Source: Clostridiales bacterium (GTDB lineage Bacteria; Bacillota; Clostridia; Saccharofermentanales; Saccharofermentanaceae). Taken from it: a stretch of 39,399 nucleotides of DNA. The notes beneath the pieces were generated by a model. The model did no database searches. It was not told the DNA's origin and worked only from the letters and a program-made list of their open reading frames with translations. Made by a program: the position numbers and the translations under genes. The stretch spans positions 1 to 39,399 of the forward strand of contig JAFWSW010000005.1 of NCBI GenBank assembly GCA_017519205.1, written 5' to 3'. Positions 1 to 24,903 of the stretch are shown piece by piece (the first letter of the stretch is position 1; every line of letters starts with the position of its first letter).

Positions 1-156
1 AAGGAGCAGAAGACCTTTCCCATAAAGGATGCGGTTGATCCTTTGCACTTCACATTTGACGCACTCAGGATTCTTCCCGTGAATCGTAAAGAGGCTTCCG
101 GTCTTAAGTCCCGCCAGTGTAGGTGAACACTGATCGACCAGATATTGCTCCAGCAT
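1..156 (-). CDS. DUF3793 family protein, N-terminal part (runs off the window)
   Basis: The minus strand opens with ATG at 156-154 and stays open for 52 codons to the window edge. The start MLEQYLVDQCSPTLAGLKTG carries the CSPTLAG-(I/L)-KTGSLF signature I associate with DUF3793, a clostridial family of unknown biochemical role. From memory, these genes often sit near flavodoxin and Feo iron-transport genes. Three cysteines are visible (Cys10, Cys32, Cys35). A GGAG-type ribosome binding site lies upstream of the ATG, and a strong promoter flanked by two palindromic operators lies further up, so the gene should be tightly regulated. The C-terminal part is outside the window. Family assignment is by motif recognition only. 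Confidence 0.75.
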   Translation of the reverse strand, partial: MLEQYLVDQCSPTLAGLKTGSLFTIHGKNPECVKCEVQRINRILYGKGLLLL

Positions 157-182
157 GTTCGGCTTTTCTCCTTTCTTTTGCA

Positions 183-198
183 GTTAGTGTATGCTAAC
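183..198. promoter_or_regulatory. GTTAGC-N4-GCTAAC operator 1
   Basis: GTTAGTGTATGCTAAC, one mismatch to the consensus. It lies just downstream of the -10 box of the DUF3793 promoter, at the expected start of transcription. Confidence 0.8.
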
Positions 199-211
199 TA
201 GCACCAAAGAA

Positions 212-240
212 ACTATACCAATCATAATATAAAAAGTCAA
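212..240 (-). promoter_or_regulatory. Promoter of the DUF3793 gene
   Basis: On the minus strand TTGACT (240-235) and TATAGT (217-212) are separated by 17 bp. GTTAGC-type operators lie on both sides, one at the start site and one upstream of the -35, an arrangement typical of strong repression. Confidence 0.75.
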
Positions 241-247
241 TAATAAA

Positions 248-263
248 ATTAGCGTATGCTAAC
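248..263. promoter_or_regulatory. GTTAGC-N4-GCTAAC operator 2
   Basis: ATTAGCGTATGCTAAC, one mismatch. It sits between the -35 boxes of two divergent promoters (235-240 minus and 278-283 plus) and could be shared by both. Confidence 0.75.
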
Positions 264-277
264 TTGAAAATTAAATG

Positions 278-306
278 TTGACAAAGAATTTGTCATCTGC
301 TATCAT
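278..306 (+). promoter_or_regulatory. Promoter of the candidate small RNA
   Basis: TTGACA (278-283), 17-bp spacer, TATCAT (301-306). It points away from the DUF3793 gene towards a stretch with no plausible gene before the terminator near 543. Confidence 0.7.
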
Positions 307-314
307 TCATATCA

Positions 315-330
315 GTTAGCGACAGCTAAC
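315..330. promoter_or_regulatory. GTTAGC-N4-GCTAAC operator 3
   Basis: GTTAGCGACAGCTAAC is a perfect match. It starts 8 bp after the -10 of the plus-strand promoter, so bound repressor would cover the start site. Confidence 0.85.
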
Positions 331-508
331 TAGTTTGTGTTCTTAGATGTCATACCTATACTGATCCGGGGGATTCCTGATATTTCCTTACAGAAGACCA
401 ACTCCCCTTTCGCACTTCTTGTAGTGATGCCCCCGGGAAAAAGTTGCCTGAAAGAAATCCGCTTGGCGAGGTGGATTAGGCAATCCTTTAGGTATTATCC
501 TTGGAAAA

Positions 509-543
509 GGTCCGCAACTGTACCTCATTGCGGACCTTTTTTT
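509..543. terminator. Bidirectional intrinsic terminator
   Basis: The stem GGTCCGCAA (509-517) pairs with TTGCGGACC (528-536) and is followed by seven T on the plus strand. On the minus strand the same stem is followed by TTTT, so it can also end the permease transcript whose stop is at 570. Confidence 0.85.
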
Positions 544-8322: not shown

Positions 8323-8338
8323 GTTAGCGAAGGCTAAC
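8323..8338. promoter_or_regulatory. GTTAGC-N4-GCTAAC operator 7
   Basis: GTTAGCGAAGGCTAAC, a perfect match, 24 bp from operator 6 (start to start). Confidence 0.85.
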
Positions 8339-9776: not shown

Positions 9777-9808
9777 CTTTCTTGAGAAATATTCGGTATA
9801 GTGTCATG

Positions 9809-9824
9809 GTTAGCGAAGGCTAAC
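9809..9824. promoter_or_regulatory. GTTAGC-N4-GCTAAC operator 8
   Basis: GTTAGCGAAGGCTAAC, a perfect match, 7 bp after the plus-strand -10 TATAGT (9797-9802) of the nitrogenase-like operon. No good -35 is visible, which suits an activator-dependent promoter. The adjacent Crp/Fnr-type protein is the obvious candidate. Confidence 0.85.
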
Positions 9825-9881
9825 TCACATGAGACAATTATAGTCTTTCTAACGGATTTTGCAATATTTGGCGGGGTAAAA

Positions 9882-10709
9882 ATGATTAAAATAGCAGTGT
9901 ATGGGAAGGGCGGTATCGGTAAATCCACCACCACTTCCAATCTGGCGGCAGCATTAAGCCGTCACTATAAGGTAATGCAGATCGGCTGTGATCCGAAGGC
10001 CGACTCGACGAAGAATCTGATGGGTGGAAAGCCCATGACTACTGTTCTGGGGAAAATCAAGGAAAAGGGCGAAGACCTGGATCTCAGCGATCTTGTTCAT
10101 GAAGGATATAACGGAGTCCTTTGTGTCGAATCCGGCGGACCTACCCCGGGTATCGGATGCGCGGGCTTAGGCATTATCTCCGCACTTCAGAAATTGGAAG
10201 AACTCGGTGCTTTTGAGAAATACGAACCGGACATTGTCCTTTATGACGTTCTCGGTGACGTTGTCTGTGGCGGATTCGCCATGCCGATCCGTGACGGATA
10301 TGCCGAGCATATCTTTATCGTTACTTCCGGCGAGATGATGGCGCTCTTTGCTGCAGATAACATCAGCCGTGCCGTAGATAACTTCAAGGAGCGGGGTTAC
10401 GCGCGTGTCCGCGGCCTTATCCTGAACGAGCGTCTCGTGGAAAATGAGACAGAGCTCGTGGACCGTTTTGCAAAAGAACATGATCTTGAGGTGATCTCCC
10501 ATATTCACAGAAGTAAGTTTGTCCAGCTTGCAGAAAGTGAAGGGAAGACCGTTATTGAGAAATTCCCGGATTCTGATATCGCTAAAGATTACGAAGAACT
10601 GGCGCTGAAGATGGTCGCTCTCTGCGCTGAGAAAGATCTTTCGGAAGCGTCTGATACACCTTCGGATAAGATTCAGGCATGCCCGACGCTGAAGAGGTGC
10701 TGCGTATGA
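9882..10709 (+). CDS. NifH/BchL/CfbC-like nitrogenase reductase (iron protein)
   Basis: ATP-dependent electron-donor protein of 275 residues, close to the usual NifH length. Motifs are intact: P-loop GKGGIGKST (8-16), switch [10 protein letters not shown] (35-43), and the two cysteines that bridge the 4Fe-4S cluster of the homodimer, Cys93 in GIGCAG and Cys129 in [12 protein letters not shown]. The start MIKIAVYG follows GGGG; the longer frame would begin inside the operator region. The last residues contain extra cysteines ([10 protein letters not shown]). It is first in a nine-gene operon and its stop overlaps the next start (ATGA). Since nifB, nifE/N and nifV are absent, it should reduce the adjacent component-1-like subunits for something other than classical nitrogen fixation. 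Confidence 0.93.
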
Positions 10710-11947
10710 GATTTGAACCGAATCTTTGCTACTGCAATCCTGCGCATGGCGGTTGGGGCATCATCCGTGTAGCGGCCCTGATTCCGGGATCGTATCTCCT
10801 GTTTGTATGCCCATCTGCATGTTTCCGGCATGGCGCGCTGGGCGCGATCCAGCATCACTATAAGAACCGCCTTTCCTATATTTATATCGATCAGGAAGAT
10901 ATCGTTGATGGCTATGACCAGCTGATTATGGATGGTGCGGAAGAACTCCTCGAGAGAACAAAGGAAGATATTAAGCTCCTTTTTATCTACGTTTCCTGTC
11001 TGGATGATTTTATCGGAACTGACCTTGATAAGGTAGCGTCGACACTTGAAGCGCGCCATCCGGGGATCCTTTTCCGCGGTGGTCACATGAATCCTATCGC
11101 TTCAAGTACGAAGATGCCGCCGGCGGTTACTACATTTGATGCGATGCTGTCTGTGCTACCCGTGCACGACGAACTTGATAACGGAATCACGATCTGGGGA
11201 AACTTCGTAGGAATCCCGGATGAGTGTGAACTGATCCGTGTACTTGAAAAACACGGGCATCCGGTCCGTCAGATATCCTCCTGCCGGGATTTTGATGAAT
11301 ACGGGCAGATGTCCAGGTCGTCTCTGTCTCTGGTTTTTAAACCCTTTGCCAATTACGCGCTTTTCCGTCTTGAGAAAAGAACGCATGCTTCTCATATCGC
11401 AATGCCGGTCAGCTATGACCTGGATACGATCGAAGAAGAATACGAAGATCTGGCAAAAGCACTGGGGGAGAACATCCTTTCTGATCTTATTGCTGAGAGA
11501 AGCAGGACAGAAGATGTGATCGCAAAGGCAAGAGAAGAGGTCGGAGATATGGATGTTTTTGTCTCTGACAGTGCAACGGTCTTCCCGTGCAGCCTGGCTT
11601 GTGCGCTTCTGAAGTATGGATTCAATGTAACTCGTGTTTATCTGCAGGAAGTCGTCGGCCCGGATCAGGTGTATGCTGTAAAGCTTCAGAATGATTATCC
11701 GACAGTTCAGCTCATCCAGGCAGATCATCCGGATGCCGTAAACCGCTGTGAAGAAGATACCGAGGCACTTGCTGTCGGAGAAGAAGCAGCCTACCTGAGT
11801 CACGCGATCCATGTGGCGGATATTTCTTCGGATGAAGGCATGTTCGGCTATCACGGGATCAGGATCCTGATGGATGCGATGGCTAAGGCCGCTCGCGAGA
11901 AAGCAGATATACGTATGCTGATCGAGCAGTATGGAGGAATCGTCTGA
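10706..11947 (+). CDS. Nitrogenase component-1-like protein, subunit A
   Basis: Protein of 413 residues related to NifD/NifK/BchN/CfbD-type oxidoreductase subunits. Cysteines at 8, 10, 35, 39 and 98 sit in the N-terminal third. The last is in [15 protein letters not shown], matching the C-x4-IGDD segment of component-1 proteins that holds a cluster ligand. The ATG at 10706 overlaps the nifH-like stop and follows GAGGTG. It is shorter than true NifD (about 480-490 residues) and I cannot identify a homocitrate or FeMo-cofactor pocket. It presumably forms a complex with the next gene product. The reaction is unknown: ATP-driven reduction of a bound substrate using electrons from the NifH-like protein. 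Confidence 0.85.
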
Positions 11948-13128
11948 TGGAAAGAAAACATAAAGTCTGTATGTATCTTCCGCCGTTTGCGGGTGACTAT
12001 TCCGGTGTCTGTTCTGCGCTTTTTGATCTTGGCGGTATGATCTGCATTCATGATGCAGCCGGTTGCACCGGAAACTATACACATTTTGATGAGCCGCGCT
12101 GGTATGGCAGCCATTCCATGGTGTTCTGCACCGGATTCAGAAAGGTAGATGCTGTTCTTGGCGATGATGAGAAACTGATCGGCAAGATTGTAAAAAATGC
12201 GCTTCTGTATCATCCGAAGTTTATAGCGATCGTCGGAAGTCCGGTCCCGAACGTCATCGGATTTGATTTTAAGGGCGTGGCAAGAGCGGTGGAGAATCGG
12301 ACCGGTATACCGTGCTTCGGATTCGCGACGGCGGGGATCAAAGGTACGTATCTCGATGGAATTATGATGGCGTTCCGTGAACTTACCCGTTATTACAAAG
12401 AGAATCCGGAGAAGCGTGACCCATGGGGTAGCTCCGGTACGGTTGCGATCCCCGGAATCACACCCCTTGATATGGAACAGAGTGTATTCTCGACTCTTAC
12501 AGAGAAGCTCAGAAACGATGGCATCGCGATCCTGAATGATAAAGATCAGTACGGAAGTCTTCTTTTCTACCAGTATCCGGAGAAGATATCTTTAAATCTG
12601 GTATGGAATCAGGCAGGGCTTGCAATTGCTGAAGAAATGAAGCGAAAGTACAGCACTCCGTATATCGTGAGATTTCCGATCGGTGAGGATCTCTATGATG
12701 AGTACCTCACATTGATTCGCAAGAGAAAGACAACTGTATTGGGAATGGAGACCGAGTTTGAGGATCTTGTGTCCTTTGAAGACTCTTATGGGAAGATCCT
12801 TCCGGTAAAAAGAAGCGGATCCCTGTTTGCTGATGCTGTCGTGGCCGGTTCCATCTCGAATTTCCTGAGAAAGCACGGTGTTCAGCTGAAGTGTTTCACT
12901 ATCTCCGGGGAAGACCGTTTCGCCCAGTATCTTAAAGATGAAGACTCAATACTTGGAAAAGTGAATATGGAAGATGATCTTCTAATCGCAGATCCGCTTT
13001 TCCTGGAGCACGCCGAGCGTGCAAAAACTAAGATATGCCTTCCGCACTATGCGGTATCGAGCCGGGTGGGAAAAGATAAGACTTTTGATTATCTGGACCC
13101 GTCGTTATGGCTTGACCTTATTTCGTAA
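11947..13128 (+). CDS. Nitrogenase component-1-like protein, subunit B
   Basis: Protein of 393 residues, second component-1-like subunit. Cys8, Cys22, Cys33 and Cys40 (HDAAGCTGNY) are possible cluster ligands. The segment FCTGFRKVDAVLGDDEKL matches the conserved region in which NifK/NifE-type proteins have D-A-V-x-G-G/D-x-x-K-L. SPVPNVIGFDFKGVARAV corresponds to the C/S-x-P-x-x-IGDD-x-x-x-V motif, with the usual cysteine replaced. The start overlaps the previous stop (TGATG). The pair could form an A2B2 complex as in nitrogenase or dark-operative reductases. Loss of the cysteine in the third motif suggests asymmetric cluster binding. Confidence 0.83.
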   Translation: MERKHKVCMYLPPFAGDYSGVCSALFDLGGMICIHDAAGCTGNYTHFDEPRWYGSHSMVFCTGFRKVDAVLGDDEKLIGKIVKNALLYHPKFIAIVGSPVPNVIGFDFKGVARAVENRTGIPCFGFATAGIKGTYLDGIMMAFRELTRYYKENPEKRDPWGSSGTVAIPGITPLDMEQSVFSTLTEKLRNDGIAILNDKDQYGSLLFYQYPEKISLNLVWNQAGLAIAEEMKRKYSTPYIVRFPIGEDLYDEYLTLIRKRKTTVLGMETEFEDLVSFEDSYGKILPVKRSGSLFADAVVAGSISNFLRKHGVQLKCFTISGEDRFAQYLKDEDSILGKVNMEDDLLIADPLFLEHAERAKTKICLPHYAVSSRVGKDKTFDYLDPSLWLDLIS

Positions 13129-13213
13129 GTCCGATCGGAAGTTTTTATAAAACGAACGGCTTAAATATACAGTTATTTTCCACCCAAAAGCAAGGTGGAT
13201 AGAAAGAGGGAAT

Positions 13214-14458
13214 ATGAAGAAAAAAGTATTAACCGTACTTATGTCTGTGGCTATTGCGCTTGCTGCGTTTACGGCCTGTGGCAAGAAAGATGAAAAGAAG
13301 GATGACACGACCACTACCACTACGGCAGAGACAACGGCCGAGTCCACTTCTGAAGAAAGCAGCAGCGAAACAGAGAGCACATCCTCTGAATCAGAGATAA
13401 CTCCTGAATCGTCTGAAGAGAAGAATCCGTTTGGTGATCCGAACGGCACCCACAAGGTGACGGATCACTCCGGTGCAGAAGTAGAAGTACCGAATACGAT
13501 CAAGCGTATCTGTGTAGGTTCCTTCTATCCGCTGGCGTCTGTTATCACAGAATACCTCGGTTCTGCTGAAAATATCGTAGGTATCCACCCGGTATCTATG
13601 AGTGCTGCAGAGAATGGTCTTCTCGGCCAGATCTATCCTGAGATCCTTAAGGCAGATACCGGCTGGATCTCCGGTGATGAGGTCAACCTCGAAGAGCTCC
13701 TGCTTCTCAAGCCGGACATTGTCATCGGTGTTGGTGAAGAGCAGGCAAAAGCGATCCGCGAGGCAGGCATCCCGGCACTGGCAACATCTGCGTCTGCCTG
13801 GAATTACGATATCATCGTTACCTATGAGCACTGGATCGATCTTCTCGATCAGGTATTTGGCGGCAGTGATTTTGCCAAGGCGGCAATGAGCAAGACAAAT
13901 GAGATTCATGCAAATATTGTCGAGAAGACGAAGAATATTAAGGACGAAGATAAGGCACGCGTACTCGTACTCTTTAAGTATTCAGATGCAGCGATGGTTG
14001 CTTCCGGTGTGAATTTCTTCGGACAGTGGTGGTGTGAATCTGTCAATGCGTATAACGTTGCCAGCGAAGTAGACGGCGGATCGATCCTGAAGATCTCCAT
14101 GGAGCAGGTATACCAGTGGAATCCGGATATCATTATCATCACGAATTTCTGCGGCACACAGCCGGAGGATCTTTATAACAACGCGATCGGAAATGATGAC
14201 TGGAGCACCGTAAATGCGGTAAAGAACAAGAAGGTCTATAAGATGCCTCTGGGTCTTTACAGAAGTTACACACCGGGTGGAGATACTCCGGTTACCATGC
14301 AGTGGATGGCACAGACAATCTATCCGGAACTCTTCTCCGATATTGATATCCGTGAAGTTGCGAAGGCTTACTATAAGGAAATGTGCGGCTACGATCTTAC
14401 GGATGCGCAGCTTGACATGATGTTCATTCCTTCCCGCGATGCGGCCAGAGGTCTCTAA
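13214..14458 (+). CDS. ABC transporter substrate-binding lipoprotein (Fe3+-siderophore/cobalamin class)
   Basis: Extracellular binding protein of 414 residues. The N-terminus is a lipoprotein signal peptide with lipobox AFTAC, Cys22 being the lipid attachment site. A Thr/Ser/Glu-rich linker of about 50 residues follows. The mature domain begins at VTDHSGAEVEVPNTIKRICVG, the standard start of the Peripla_BP_2 (BtuF/FhuD/FepB) fold. LKPDIVIGVGEE, QWNPDIIIITN and VYKMPLGLYR fit that class. It is followed by FecCD permease and ATPase genes, completing an importer. The 85-bp gap before it has a small hairpin (TCCACC/GGTGGA near 13180) but no evident promoter. The ligand could be a siderophore, haem or a corrinoid. 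Confidence 0.92.
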   Translation: MKKKVLTVLMSVAIALAAFTACGKKDEKKDDTTTTTTAETTAESTSEESSSETESTSSESEITPESSEEKNPFGDPNGTHKVTDHSGAEVEVPNTIKRICVGSFYPLASVITEYLGSAENIVGIHPVSMSAAENGLLGQIYPEILKADTGWISGDEVNLEELLLLKPDIVIGVGEEQAKAIREAGIPALATSASAWNYDIIVTYEHWIDLLDQVFGGSDFAKAAMSKTNEIHANIVEKTKNIKDEDKARVLVLFKYSDAAMVASGVNFFGQWWCESVNAYNVASEVDGGSILKISMEQVYQWNPDIIIITNFCGTQPEDLYNNAIGNDDWSTVNAVKNKKVYKMPLGLYRSYTPGGDTPVTMQWMAQTIYPELFSDIDIREVAKAYYKEMCGYDLTDAQLDMMFIPSRDAARGL

Positions 14459-14476
14459 TAGATCGTAGGTGGGAAT

Positions 14477-15475
14477 TTGAAGAAGAAAACAGAAATCTTA
14501 TGGGTGATCGGTATTCTTGTGGCACTTGTGGCTTCCTTCATAGCGGCGCTGGTGATCGGAAGATACCAGATCCCGGTCAAAGACTGTGTCAAAGTCCTCC
14601 TTGGCATGAAGGTCGATGATCCGAATGTAAAAACCGTACTCTATAAGATCCGACTTCCGAGGTCGATCCTTGCGATTATTGCGGGAGCAGGTCTGGCAGT
14701 GGCCGGTGCGGCCTTTCAGAGCATGTTTTCGAACCCGCTGGCGACACCCGATACACTGGGCGTCGTCACGGGCGCTTCTTTCGGAGCGACACTCGGAATT
14801 ATGTTCCATCTTCCTTCTCTGGGAATTCAGGGAACGGCATTCATCATGGGTCTTATCGCAGTCGGACTGGTGTATATGATCAGCCGGGTCAAAGGTGAGT
14901 CCACTCTGGTTATGCTGATCCTTTCCGGTATGGTGATCAGTTCGCTCTTCGAAGCATTGGTGTCTCTGATCAAGTATGTCGCCGATCCGCAGGATGTTCT
15001 TCCCGAGATCACATACTGGCTCATGGGAAGCCTGGCAGGCACCAGTTTCAAGAAACTCTATATCGGAACGATTCCGATGCTTATCGGTATCGTGATCCTT
15101 TTCTGCCTGAGATGGAAACTGAATGTCCTTTCATTGAATGATGATGAAGCAAAGGCAATGGGTATCAATCTCAAGCTTATGCGCGGACTGACCATCGTGT
15201 CCTCGACCATGATTACCGCTTCGGTAATCGCCATGTGCGGCAAGGTCGGCTGGATCGGTATTCTGATTCCGCATATCTCACGTATGATGTTCGGAAATAA
15301 CAACAAATATGTTATTCCTGCCAGCATCGGACTGGGTGCGACGTATCTGCTCCTCATAGATACCATCGCAAGATCCGCGACTGCGGCAGAACTGCCGATA
15401 TCCATACTTACAGCAATTCTCGGAGCACCTGTATTTATCGTGCTCCTGCGTCGGACAGGAGGTGTGAAAACATGA
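14477..15475 (+). CDS. FecCD/BtuC-family ABC transporter permease
   Basis: Integral membrane permease of 332 residues with about ten predicted helices. YKIRLPRSILAIIAGAGLAVAGAAFQSMFSNPLATPDTLGV is the diagnostic FecCD segment (split here across residues 58-98), and GWIGILIPHISRM is the conserved coupling loop near the C-terminus. The start is a TTG at 14477 with AGGTGGG close upstream; there is no in-frame ATG before the conserved region. It is the single permease of the importer, so it presumably acts as a homodimer like BtuC. Its stop overlaps the ATPase start (ATGA). Confidence 0.93.
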   Translation: MKKKTEILWVIGILVALVASFIAALVIGRYQIPVKDCVKVLLGMKVDDPNVKTVLYKIRLPRSILAIIAGAGLAVAGAAFQSMFSNPLATPDTLGVVTGASFGATLGIMFHLPSLGIQGTAFIMGLIAVGLVYMISRVKGESTLVMLILSGMVISSLFEALVSLIKYVADPQDVLPEITYWLMGSLAGTSFKKLYIGTIPMLIGIVILFCLRWKLNVLSLNDDEAKAMGINLKLMRGLTIVSSTMITASVIAMCGKVGWIGILIPHISRMMFGNNNKYVIPASIGLGATYLLLIDTIARSATAAELPISILTAILGAPVFIVLLRRTGGVKT

Positions 15476-16389
15476 ATTTCGAAGTCGAACATGCATCTTT
15501 TGGTTATAGAAAAGAACCTGATATCCTTAAGGATATTCATTTCCAGATCGGAAAAGGTGAGATCCTTTCTATATTAGGTTCAAATGGTGTAGGTAAAACT
15601 ACGCTTCTGAAGTGTACACTCGGTTTCCTGCCATGGAGATCAGGACAGACTCTGATCGACGGGAAGCCATGGGGTGAGTGGAAGAATCAGGATATCTGGA
15701 AAAGGATCGGCTATGTACCGCAGGCAAAAAGATCTGCGTTTTCCTATACGACGGAAGAGATGGTGCTGCTTGGCAGAAATGCCCATCTGGGACTTCTTTC
15801 CCAGCCAAGTAAGAAAGACTACGATCATGCGAAGGAGTGTCTCGAGATGGTCGGCATGAGCCGTCTGATCGGCAAGCTCTGTAATGAGATCTCCGGCGGT
15901 GAGTTGCAGATGGTCCTGATTGCCAGAGCACTGGCGACAGATCCGGAGCTTCTGATCCTCGATGAGCCGGAATCGAATCTTGACTTTAAAAACCAGTTGA
16001 TCGTTATTCATACGATCCGGGATCTTTGTAGAGAACGGGGTATATCTTCCATAGTAAATACACATTATCCGGAACATGCGCTGGCGATCTCGCATAAGGC
16101 ATTGATCCTAAATCGGGACGGCACGAATGCTTTCGGCAATGCTGAAGAAATCATCAATGAAGAGCGTTTGGCCAAGGCTTTTGACGTAGATGTGCGTATC
16201 CGTTCCTTCATGGTGGCAGAGAATACGCACACGTGTGTACTTCCAATCGATATCGTCAGGAAAAGCACCCGTGAACGCGGCGATGGCGAGATCCGTGTAG
16301 CTATGGAAGAAGATGAACAGGAGTCGTACCGGGATACCCGCAGAAAGCGGGTATCGAAGAAACAAACTATCAGGAAAGAGGTGAGCTGA
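15472..16389 (+). CDS. FecE/BtuD-family ABC transporter ATPase
   Basis: Importer ATPase of 305 residues: Walker A GSNGVGKTT (about 37-45), Q-loop VPQAKRSAFSYTTEEMVLLGR, signature ISGGELQMV, Walker B LLILDEPESNLDF, switch His in VNTHYPEHA. It is about 45 residues longer than the usual 250-260. The C-terminal extension (from about 255) is rich in charged residues and ends in a basic stretch, function unknown. It couples ATP hydrolysis to import through the FecCD permease. Tight overlap with the permease and a 2-bp gap to the next gene show a single operon. Confidence 0.92.
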   Translation: MNFEVEHASFGYRKEPDILKDIHFQIGKGEILSILGSNGVGKTTLLKCTLGFLPWRSGQTLIDGKPWGEWKNQDIWKRIGYVPQAKRSAFSYTTEEMVLLGRNAHLGLLSQPSKKDYDHAKECLEMVGMSRLIGKLCNEISGGELQMVLIARALATDPELLILDEPESNLDFKNQLIVIHTIRDLCRERGISSIVNTHYPEHALAISHKALILNRDGTNAFGNAEEIINEERLAKAFDVDVRIRSFMVAENTHTCVLPIDIVRKSTRERGDGEIRVAMEEDEQESYRDTRRKRVSKKQTIRKEVS

Positions 16390-21804: not shown

Positions 21805-21820
21805 GTTAGCATATGCTAAC
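21805..21820. promoter_or_regulatory. GTTAGC-N4-GCTAAC operator 11
   Basis: GTTAGCATATGCTAAC, a perfect and fully palindromic match, placed over the expected eno transcription start. Confidence 0.88.
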
Positions 21821-21834
21821 TTGTCTTGGTCTAT

Positions 21835-21885
21835 AATTCCTCTCCATATGCGCCGCTTTCCAATTCCCGGCGCGGGAGAGGAATT
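21835..21885 (+). promoter_or_regulatory. Long hairpin in the eno 5' leader
   Basis: AATTCCTCTCC (21835-21845) pairs perfectly with GGAGAGGAATT (21875-21885), enclosing GCGCCG/CGGCGC (21850-21855 and 21868-21873). No U-tract follows. It could stabilise the mRNA or be a regulatory structure. A related hairpin with the same upstream spacing lies beyond the eno stop on the other strand (23316-23363). Confidence 0.7.
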
Positions 21886-21896
21886 AGTATGTATGA

Positions 21897-23210
<1,314 letters not shown>

Positions 23211-23240
23211 AACCTTCCTTTCGAAATATCTAACGCAAGG

Positions 23241-23285
23241 ACTGCCCTGCCTGTGATTATGTCACGGACAGGGCAGTTCAGTTTT
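23241..23285 (+). terminator. Probable terminator of eno
   Basis: ACTGCCCTG (23241-23249) pairs with CAGGGCAGT (23269-23277), with further pairing inside (CTGTGA/TCACGG). The run after the stem, TTCAGTTTTGG, is only moderately T-rich. Confidence 0.6.
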
Positions 23286-23315
23286 GGCCTTTGTCTGTTT
23301 TTTCTTGGAAATGTT

Positions 23316-23395
23316 AATTCCCTCCCTGTGCCCATTCCAGAAAGACACTTGTGGGAGGGAATTTTGAATTAAGACATGAGTTAGCGTATGCTAAC
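23316..23395 (-). ncRNA. Candidate small RNA or orphan leader between eno and xylA
   Basis: A strong minus-strand promoter with a perfect operator starts about 1 bp past the xylA stop and reads towards the 3' end of eno, where there is no gene. The transcript would begin near 23395 and soon form a long hairpin: AATTCCCTCCC (minus, 23363-23353) with GGGAGGGAATT (23326-23316). The layout operator, TGTCTT, 7 nt, AATTCC-stem is the same as in the eno leader. No good terminator is seen on this strand, so the 3' end is unknown and the RNA may extend antisense to eno. It may be an iron-regulated RNA or a duplicated leader that lost its gene. Confidence 0.4.
23380..23395. promoter_or_regulatory. GTTAGC-N4-GCTAAC operator 12
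   Basis: GTTAGCGTATGCTAAC, a perfect match, 6 bp after the -10 of the minus-strand orphan promoter. It lies at the 3' end of xylA, not upstream of a gene. Confidence 0.85.
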
Positions 23396-23401
23396 TATCT
23401 C

Positions 23402-23430
23402 TTTATACCATCGAGAAATGTTTTTGTCAA
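23402..23430 (-). promoter_or_regulatory. Orphan promoter at the 3' end of xylA
   Basis: On the minus strand TTGACA (23430-23425), 17-bp spacer, TATAAA (23407-23402): the same boxes and spacing as the eno promoter. Confidence 0.75.
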
Positions 23431-24756
23431 TCAATTATTCGAAAGAATAATATTATTGAGAACACCTTCGAGGTATTCCTGTTTGCCGGATACAGGATTT
23501 GCCGGAGCTTTCAGTTCGGAAGCTCTTGCTGCCAGTTCTTCGAGTGTGGAGTCGCCTGATCTGACCTTCTTTCCGAGATCTGAAGAGAAGGAGGAGTAAC
23601 GCTCTTCGATATTCTTCTCCAGTCTTCCATCTTCGATCATTTCAGCAGCTTTCAGCAAACCATAGGCAAATGAATCCATTCCGAGGATAAATGCGTAGAA
23701 CATATCCTCATAAGTGTTACTCGGACGACGGTTCTTGGAGTCGAAGTTGATGCCGACCGGAAGTCCGTCATTCTTCAGGATCTCATACATAGCAAGAGTT
23801 GTGTCATAGACATTGCTCGGGAAGCAGTCAGTATCCCAGCCGAGCATGATATCGCCCTGGTTAGCGTCGATCGATCCAAGCATATTGTTGATACGGCTGA
23901 TTCGGAGTTCATGCTGGAAGGTGTGACCTGCAAGAGTTGCGTGGTTAGCTTCAATATTCATCATAAAGTCTTTGTCCAGACCATATTCCTTAAGGAATCC
24001 GATTGCCGTAGCTGCATCAAAGTCGTACTGATGCTTCATCGGCTCCTTTGGCTTAGGTTCGATCAGGAAGGTTCCGGTAAAGCCGATCTTTCTTCCGTAA
24101 TCTTTTGCCATCTTCATCAGGTTGGCGATATTCTCCTGCTCAAACTTAACTTTGGTATTGAGAAGAGTTTCATAGCCTTCTCTGCCGCCCCAGAATACAT
24201 ATCCGCGTCCACCGAGCTTTACAGTGAGCTCAATGGCTTTTTTTACTTGAGCTGCGGCAAAGCAATATACATCGAGGTCATTTGTGCTTCCGGCACCGTT
24301 CATAAAACGAGGATTGCTGAACATGTTGGCTGTTCCCCAGAGACATTTAATGTCAGTACCGGCTGTCTTTTCGAGGATGTAATCTGTAATTTCATCCAGT
24401 CTTTTGTTGGTCTCATTGATGTCATCCGCTTCAGGAACGAGATCGACATCATGGAAGCAGTAGTACTTAATGCCGAGCTTCTTCATAAACTCAATTCCTG
24501 CATCCACTTTTGCCTTGGCATGTTCCATTGTACCCTCTGATTCAGCACCAAAACGCTTGTCTGCTGTACCTCGTCCGAACATGTCAACACCATTGGCGCA
24601 GAGATTGTGCCACCATGCCATAGCAAACGGGAGCTGTTCGCTCATTTTCTTTCCGAGAACGACTCTGTCCGGATCGTAATACTTAAATGCCATCGGGTTT
24701 TTGCTGTTGGGTCCCTCATACTTGATCTGAGGGATTCCTGCAAAGATTTCACTCAT
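23431..24756 (-). CDS. xylA: Xylose isomerase
   Basis: Enzyme of 441 residues, the normal length for the clostridial type, interconverting D-xylose and D-xylulose (also glucose/fructose) with two divalent metals. Diagnostic blocks are MAWWHNLCANGVDMFG, catalytic His in YCFHDVDL, FWGGREGYE, FLIEPKPKEPMKHQYDFD, NIEANHATLAGHTFQHEL, LGSIDANQGD and NFDSKNRR. The start at 24756 follows GGAGG; a TTG further up lacks support. No xylulokinase, xylose transporter or XylR gene is adjacent, so it stands apart from a pentose operon. Transcription is from a consensus promoter with a perfect GTTAGC operator. Confidence 0.97.
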   Translation of the reverse strand: MSEIFAGIPQIKYEGPNSKNPMAFKYYDPDRVVLGKKMSEQLPFAMAWWHNLCANGVDMFGRGTADKRFGAESEGTMEHAKAKVDAGIEFMKKLGIKYYCFHDVDLVPEADDINETNKRLDEITDYILEKTAGTDIKCLWGTANMFSNPRFMNGAGSTNDLDVYCFAAAQVKKAIELTVKLGGRGYVFWGGREGYETLLNTKVKFEQENIANLMKMAKDYGRKIGFTGTFLIEPKPKEPMKHQYDFDAATAIGFLKEYGLDKDFMMNIEANHATLAGHTFQHELRISRINNMLGSIDANQGDIMLGWDTDCFPSNVYDTTLAMYEILKNDGLPVGINFDSKNRRPSNTYEDMFYAFILGMDSFAYGLLKAAEMIEDGRLEKNIEERYSSFSSDLGKKVRSGDSTLEELAARASELKAPANPVSGKQEYLEGVLNNIILSNN

Positions 24757-24797
24757 AGTGATACCTCCATTCAATAATACTTGATTTGCGCAAGAAA

Positions 24798-24813
24798 GTT
24801 AGCACTTGCTAAC
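24798..24813. promoter_or_regulatory. GTTAGC-N4-GCTAAC operator 13
   Basis: GTTAGCACTTGCTAAC, a perfect match, over the xylA start site on the minus strand, 4 bp after the -10. Confidence 0.87.
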
Positions 24814-24817
24814 TATA

Positions 24818-24846
24818 ATCTTATCGAGTTCACAAGCTTCCGTCAA
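24818..24846 (-). promoter_or_regulatory. Promoter of xylA
   Basis: On the minus strand TTGACG (24846-24841), 17-bp spacer, TAAGAT (24823-24818). Confidence 0.72.
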
Positions 24847-24887
24847 CAATATTCTTTAAGAAGAGAGTGATTGTTGTGATATAATAG

Positions 24888-24903
24888 GTTAGCAAAAGCT
24901 AAC
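24888..24903. promoter_or_regulatory. GTTAGC-N4-GCTAAC operator 14
   Basis: GTTAGCAAAAGCTAAC, a perfect match, directly after a plus-strand -10 TATAAT (24880-24885). It belongs to the membrane methyltransferase gene, divergent from xylA. Confidence 0.87.

Follow-up and report, generated by a model that had tools for sequence, protein, structure and literature searches.

A covarying, operator-led RNA that probably acts as an iron-sparing small RNA in a genus of uncultured Clostridia

Promoter, operator and terminator at the locus

The window analysed here, a stretch of 39,399 nucleotides from a Clostridiales genome, opens with the 5′ part of a DUF3793 gene on the minus strand (1–156; PF12672, E 6.5e-5 for the fragment). 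Divergent from this gene, on the plus strand, lie a promoter, an operator and an intrinsic terminator that together span 278–543. The promoter is of the sigma-70/A type and is composed of TTGACA (278–283) and TATCAT (301–306) separated by a 17-bp spacer; it matches the consensus at 11 of 12 positions and contains an extended −10 TG. The 18-nt operator, AGTTAGCGACAGCTAACT (314–331), is a perfect inverted repeat with arms of 7 bp and a 4-nt spacer. It starts 7 nt downstream of the −10 element and covers the predicted start site of the RNA, placed near 312–314 from the position of the −10. The terminator (505–543) consists of two 13-nt arms (505–517 and 528–540) that are 100% complementary, giving a 13-bp stem that runs into seven T; it might at the same time terminate transcription of the ABC permease gene that converges on it. 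An earlier note, made from the letters of the window, had described a promoter with a 17-bp spacer, a perfect operator at the start site and a strong terminator, and each of these was recovered.

Taken singly, the promoter and terminator matches do not exceed chance; they stand above it because they are conserved in relatives. In 17 of 18 homologous loci, TTGACA (TTGACG once) is found 17 bp from the −10, which in turn stands 7–8 nt before the GTTAG of the operator. The operator and the terminator hairpin are kept in all 18 copies, with the terminator U-tracts interrupted in one subclade. The operator box is also far more frequent than expected. The 2.5-Mb genome contains 17 instances of GTTAGCNNNNGCTAAC, most of them inside the window, as against one of the reversed control; within the window, TTAGCNNNNGCTAA, with up to one mismatch allowed, is present 17 times where 0.6 would be expected. 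Two further boxes, at 184–197 (one mismatch) and 249–262, lie inside the promoter region of the divergent DUF3793 gene (184–262), the minus-strand promoter of which is located at 240–212.

A structured RNA family of the source genus

The predicted transcript (314–543, plus strand) is a structured RNA of what we term subtype A, as judged from its fold z-score, covariance matches and covariation. Folding of 314–546 yields −78.7 kcal/mol with z = −4.46, and none of 200 shuffled sequences did as well. In a structural alignment fitted to a covariance model, 88.7% of cells are paired and double-sided changes are present at 19 of the 29 pairs; pairing falls to 30–47% in controls in which the partners were slid by one to three columns. 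Minimum-energy folds of single sequences, calculated without the model, return the same helices in most copies. Covariation supports a junction closed by P1 that carries the arms P2 and P3. P1 joins AUACCUA (352–358) to UAGGUAU (489–495), the latter strand being conserved as well; it shows an A-U to G-C change on both sides between subtypes, and its register slips in one subclade. P2 joins CCGGGGG (366–372) to CCCCCGG (430–436), and all 8 pairs of its core show both-sided changes somewhere among the copies. The P3 hairpin (443–484) is variable in sequence; like P1 and P2, it is backed by fold and covariation. When the divergent subtype B is aligned by itself, this junction is recovered again, and 10 of its pairs are changed on both sides as opposed to 0–2 in slid controls.

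Conservation of sequence is found in AGUUUGUGUUC near the 5′ end, in P1 and in the C-rich segment of the P2 loop. The 5′ segment AGUUUGUGUUCUUAGAU (332–348) is nearly invariant in both subtypes and largely unpaired in most copies, its first 11 bases having a mean unpaired probability of 0.90 in the window copy. For the C-rich segment, GACCAACUCCCCUUU (396–410), a candidate pairing seed, this value is 0.96 in the window copy, above 0.75 in 16 of the 18 copies and 0.40 and 0.59 in the remaining two, compared with a mean of about 0.4 for the whole molecule. The core of the segment, AACUCCCC (400–407), is invariant in all copies, mostly unpaired, and complementary to the ribosome-site-like sequence GGGGAG. 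The C-rich runs noticed previously are thus borne out in that one mostly unpaired segment of this composition is invariant. Subtype B has an additional invariant loop, GCUACCAC, in P3.

The covariance model (R1), built on 13 subtype A sequences (alignment A2), identified 18 full copies in 15 of the 23 genomes (species) of the source genus, a group of uncultured Clostridia with mostly ruminant-derived genomes, and no copy among another 92 Saccharofermentanaceae genomes. The covariance search proposed in the earlier note therefore uncovers a conserved structured RNA. Five of the 18 copies belong to subtype B and score 29–41 bits, as against 142–194 bits for subtype A. A DNA search of related genomes, in which matches with E above ~1e-3 were taken as noise, likewise found homologues in most congeners. 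A second copy in the same genome, on contig C29, is 94% identical to that in the window. An Rfam scan of the whole window returned no family at gathering level, and the weak matches from a permissive scan of the window copy are confined to terminator or operator sequence and constitute noise. A pattern scan of public genomes, for which ~12 chance matches were expected with the pattern used, found Clostridia records that fit the family; matches in records of Nitrospirae, Deferribacteres, Scalindua and Bacteroidales were collectively put down to probable coincidence.

Several related arrangements were observed alongside the full copies. A unit of DUF3793, boxes and RNA stands at the beginning of both contigs (window positions 1–543 and L032 positions 1–544), the two copies being 87% identical across 554 aligned bases. 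The RNA is therefore present in duplicate, and this repeat is the probable cause of the break in the assembly. A truncated 3′ part of subtype B, devoid of promoter and 5′ end, is present in G001 (L185, near 1501–1631), and in G008 a coding region is followed by a remnant of subtype A that has kept just its 3′ end and terminator (L014, 1501–1565). In two genomes of a sister genus (L192, minus strand, and L193, plus strand, from 1501), the same box covers the start of a different RNA, also well folded (z about −5), that has a terminator and is situated upstream of NfnA/NfnB-like genes, these names having been assigned by eye from the sequence. This type C appears to be a similarly built operator-led RNA, with the likeness being one of layout rather than of established homology.

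The operator box and iron

The box of the RNA operator is also found upstream of feoA-feoB in this genome (Pfam FeoA, FeoB_N). Relatives carry the RNA in divergent orientation to DUF3793 and flavodoxin genes, with a gene for a DtxR-type repressor (PF02742, PF01325) nearby. Boxes are present in all 15 RNA-bearing genomes of the genus and in 3 of the 8 RNA-less ones, with 5 of 8 having none (Fisher p ~0.002, with genomes taken as independent and their relatedness ignored). At the level of sequence, the RNA has its own promoter under a predicted iron-repressor operator, as an iron-responsive small RNA should. Because the box is common to feoAB, to loci with flavodoxin and DtxR neighbours, and to a siderophore-type island, we infer with strong support that the RNA is under iron control, and a DtxR-type protein acting at the operator would be responsible for its repression by iron.

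The DtxR family includes IdeR and MntR, and the presence of manganese sensors in the repressor family raises the question of whether manganese or another metal, and not iron, is the signal to which the regulator responds. In keeping with this alternative, mntP-ZIP lies on the contig of the second RNA copy and provides the best seed match among sampled genes (see below). Such a reading is nonetheless improbable, given that the box precedes feoAB and is accompanied by flavodoxin and siderophore-type transporter genes.

The box also marks a larger region. An iron-box island extends over window positions 8324–34348 (see also L181, 3482–3524; L180; L032), and most perfect GTTAGCnnnnGCTAAC boxes of the genome fall in the window and contig C29, with others at feoAB and at siderophore-type ABC pairs. 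Box-headed genes of the window comprise a NifH-like/nitrogenase-like operon, siderophore-type ABC pairs and enolase. In the operon (9801–16389), the genes of a NifH-like protein and of two nitrogenase-component-1-like proteins come before a substrate-binding protein gene and genes of ABC transporters; its product would be a nitrogenase-like reductase under probable iron control. In the stretches 21806–24902 of the window and 652–1705 of L032, iron boxes precede enolase, phosphoglycerate mutase belongs to a box-headed cluster with an HMA-domain gene, and a xylose-isomerase-like gene has a box upstream. The occurrence of central sugar-metabolism genes within an iron regulon is unexpected.

Mode of action and candidate targets

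We consider it probable that 278–543 is a stand-alone gene for a trans-acting small RNA of ~230 nt that is repressed by a DtxR-type protein, induced by iron starvation and operates in the manner of FsrA, IsrR and MrsI. In the proposed mechanism, an iron-loaded DtxR-type repressor would occupy the operator over the start site and block RNA polymerase. When iron is low, the repressor would leave, and the RNA would be made alongside FeoAB, flavodoxin and siderophore-type transporters. P2 of the folded RNA would then display the mostly unpaired, invariant AACUCCCC for pairing with the ribosome-binding sites, of the GGGGAG type, in particular mRNAs. Hfq may assist this pairing, and translation of these mRNAs would be blocked. 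We infer the binding of the DtxR-type protein to the box, the induction upon loss of iron, the pairing in trans and the direction of the effect; the RNA would thus probably help the cell to save iron by blocking selected mRNAs. This is the best reading because the seed is arranged as in FsrA and IsrR, MrsI provides a precedent, Hfq is present (in 23 of 23 genus genomes) and a role in cis is unlikely. Interrupted terminator U-tracts are not typical of Hfq clients, and those of one subclade count against an Hfq-assisted RNA. The earlier suggestion of an iron-responsive small RNA, an analogue of FsrA in Clostridia, gains support from the conserved fold, the operator shared with feoAB and the invariant C-rich segment.

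Iron-sparing small RNAs are known in Proteobacteria, Bacillus, staphylococci and mycobacteria, and a limited search of the open-access literature found none described in Clostridia. RyhB and PrrF are likewise iron-repressed, trans-acting and iron-sparing, and PrrF also exists as paralogues, but both are proteobacterial and controlled by Fur, and neither was matched in the Rfam scans. Staphylococcal IsrR is genus-restricted, 174 nt long and iron-sparing, is expressed from a sigma-A promoter with Fur boxes, ends in an intrinsic terminator and has three hairpins, stem-loops with unpaired C-rich regions and tested targets (PMC9410917). The Clostridia RNA resembles it in its restriction to a genus, its sigma-A promoter with presumed iron-repressor boxes, its stem-loops with unpaired C-rich sequence, its terminator and its probable iron-sparing role; it differs in having a DtxR-type palindrome in place of Fur boxes, a junction closed by P1 instead of three hairpins, and targets that are candidates only. 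FsrA of Bacillus subtilis binds Shine-Dalgarno sequences through a C-rich motif (PMC9410917). It shares with the Clostridia RNA the C-rich single-stranded region complementary to ribosome sites (AACUCCCC here), a likeness of mode and not of descent, and repression by iron, which for the Clostridia RNA is predicted; it differs in its Fur control and FbpABC chaperones. The comparison with FsrA was one of descriptions, and the Rfam scans showed no match. MrsI of Mycobacterium tuberculosis, an iron-starvation small RNA of about 100 nt with a 6-nt seed, has an IdeR binding site (PMC8628891) and so offers a precedent for DtxR-family control, but it is shorter, comes from an unrelated organism and gave no match. 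The Clostridia RNA is a new, uncatalogued RNA family of a known regulator type and, as far as tested, is separate in descent from IsrR, FsrA and MrsI. With the family now defined by fold, seed, operator and species range, it becomes possible to test directly whether rumen fermenters, with their hydrogenase and ferredoxin enzymes, regulate their iron use through RNA.

Other modes of action were weighed against the same data. The strong structure, the several invariant unpaired segments and the lack of a conserved target among those sought would suit an RNA that binds and sequesters a protein, in the manner of 6S or CsrB, or a sponge for another small RNA. We regard this as unlikely, as the invariant AACUCCCC is complementary to ribosome-site-like sequence, as in FsrA and IsrR (PMC9410917), and no repeated protein-binding motif was noticed in the course of the other analyses.

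A cis-acting leader or attenuator, in which fold and terminator would decide whether transcription continues into the gene behind them (gpmA in subtype B loci, for example), is quite improbable. In its favour are G011 and G020, where the ribosome site and start of gpmA (phosphoglycerate mutase) follow the terminator by ~20 nt or less; these are the only two loci with gpmA directly behind the RNA, and a conserved same-strand downstream gene, the hallmark of a riboswitch or leader, was not found. The gene that follows is convergent with the RNA in the window and at the majority of subtype A loci; elsewhere, unrelated genes lie downstream at a distance of hundreds of bases. At the second copy in this genome, boxes separate from the operator of the RNA accompany the HMA-gpmA cluster past the terminator, and Rfam gave no riboswitch or leader match beyond the terminator- and operator-region noise. 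A role in cis is thus unlikely because the downstream genes differ or converge and the terminator intervenes.

A small peptide or a dual-function RNA can be virtually dismissed: in the window, a frame that begins with the GTG at 337 runs open through 123 codons across the entire element, a nuance to the previous description of the stretch as having no credible reading frame, but no ribosome site is visible before this GTG, and among relatives some copies reach a stop after 8 codons and others at various positions further along, with frame shifts and no common sequence past the first residues. No reading frame is common to the 18 copies, which disposes of the conserved short peptide that the earlier note had named as grounds for refutation.

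For the trans-acting small RNA, candidate targets were sought through the complement of the seed. Before start codons this complement showed no clear excess in RNA-bearing over RNA-less congeners, GGGGAGTT preceding ATG ~6.2 times per RNA-bearing genome and ~5.5 times per RNA-less genome. The first obvious iron-enzyme candidate, the mRNA of a TM1266-like hydrogenase regulator, did not track with the RNA and is not supported as a conserved target, since its GGGGAG site is found both with and without the RNA in the genome and is missing from other RNA-bearing genomes.

The mntP-ZIP mRNA is a hypothetical target, found post hoc by looking for the site, and its orthologues are related. In this genome, the predicted pairing at the site runs through 10 consecutive bases, and the gene ranks first of 268 sampled start regions; orthologues of the other RNA-bearing genomes tested rank between 3 and 20. 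Of the 268 regions, among them two mntP copies, 6 contain GGGGAG; of the 13 orthologues that could be read, 12 have it, including one from an RNA-less genome (G016). A wider interpretation, which we put forward as doubtful, would have the family serve a DtxR-type iron regulon in Clostridia at the post-transcriptional level, with two duplicated subtypes that have different second loops and target sets (B adding GCUACCAC) and that silence a manganese exporter, among others, so that manganese can replace iron. Were this true, the similarly built type C RNA of the sister genus would point to a recurrent element of the whole family Saccharofermentanaceae.

The mntP-ZIP leader has a further feature of its own. 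An Rfam search of L032 gave no match for it, and in most orthologues (L209–L220) a hairpin and then a T run directly precede the GGGGAG ribosome site, an arrangement that resembles an attenuator or metal riboswitch.
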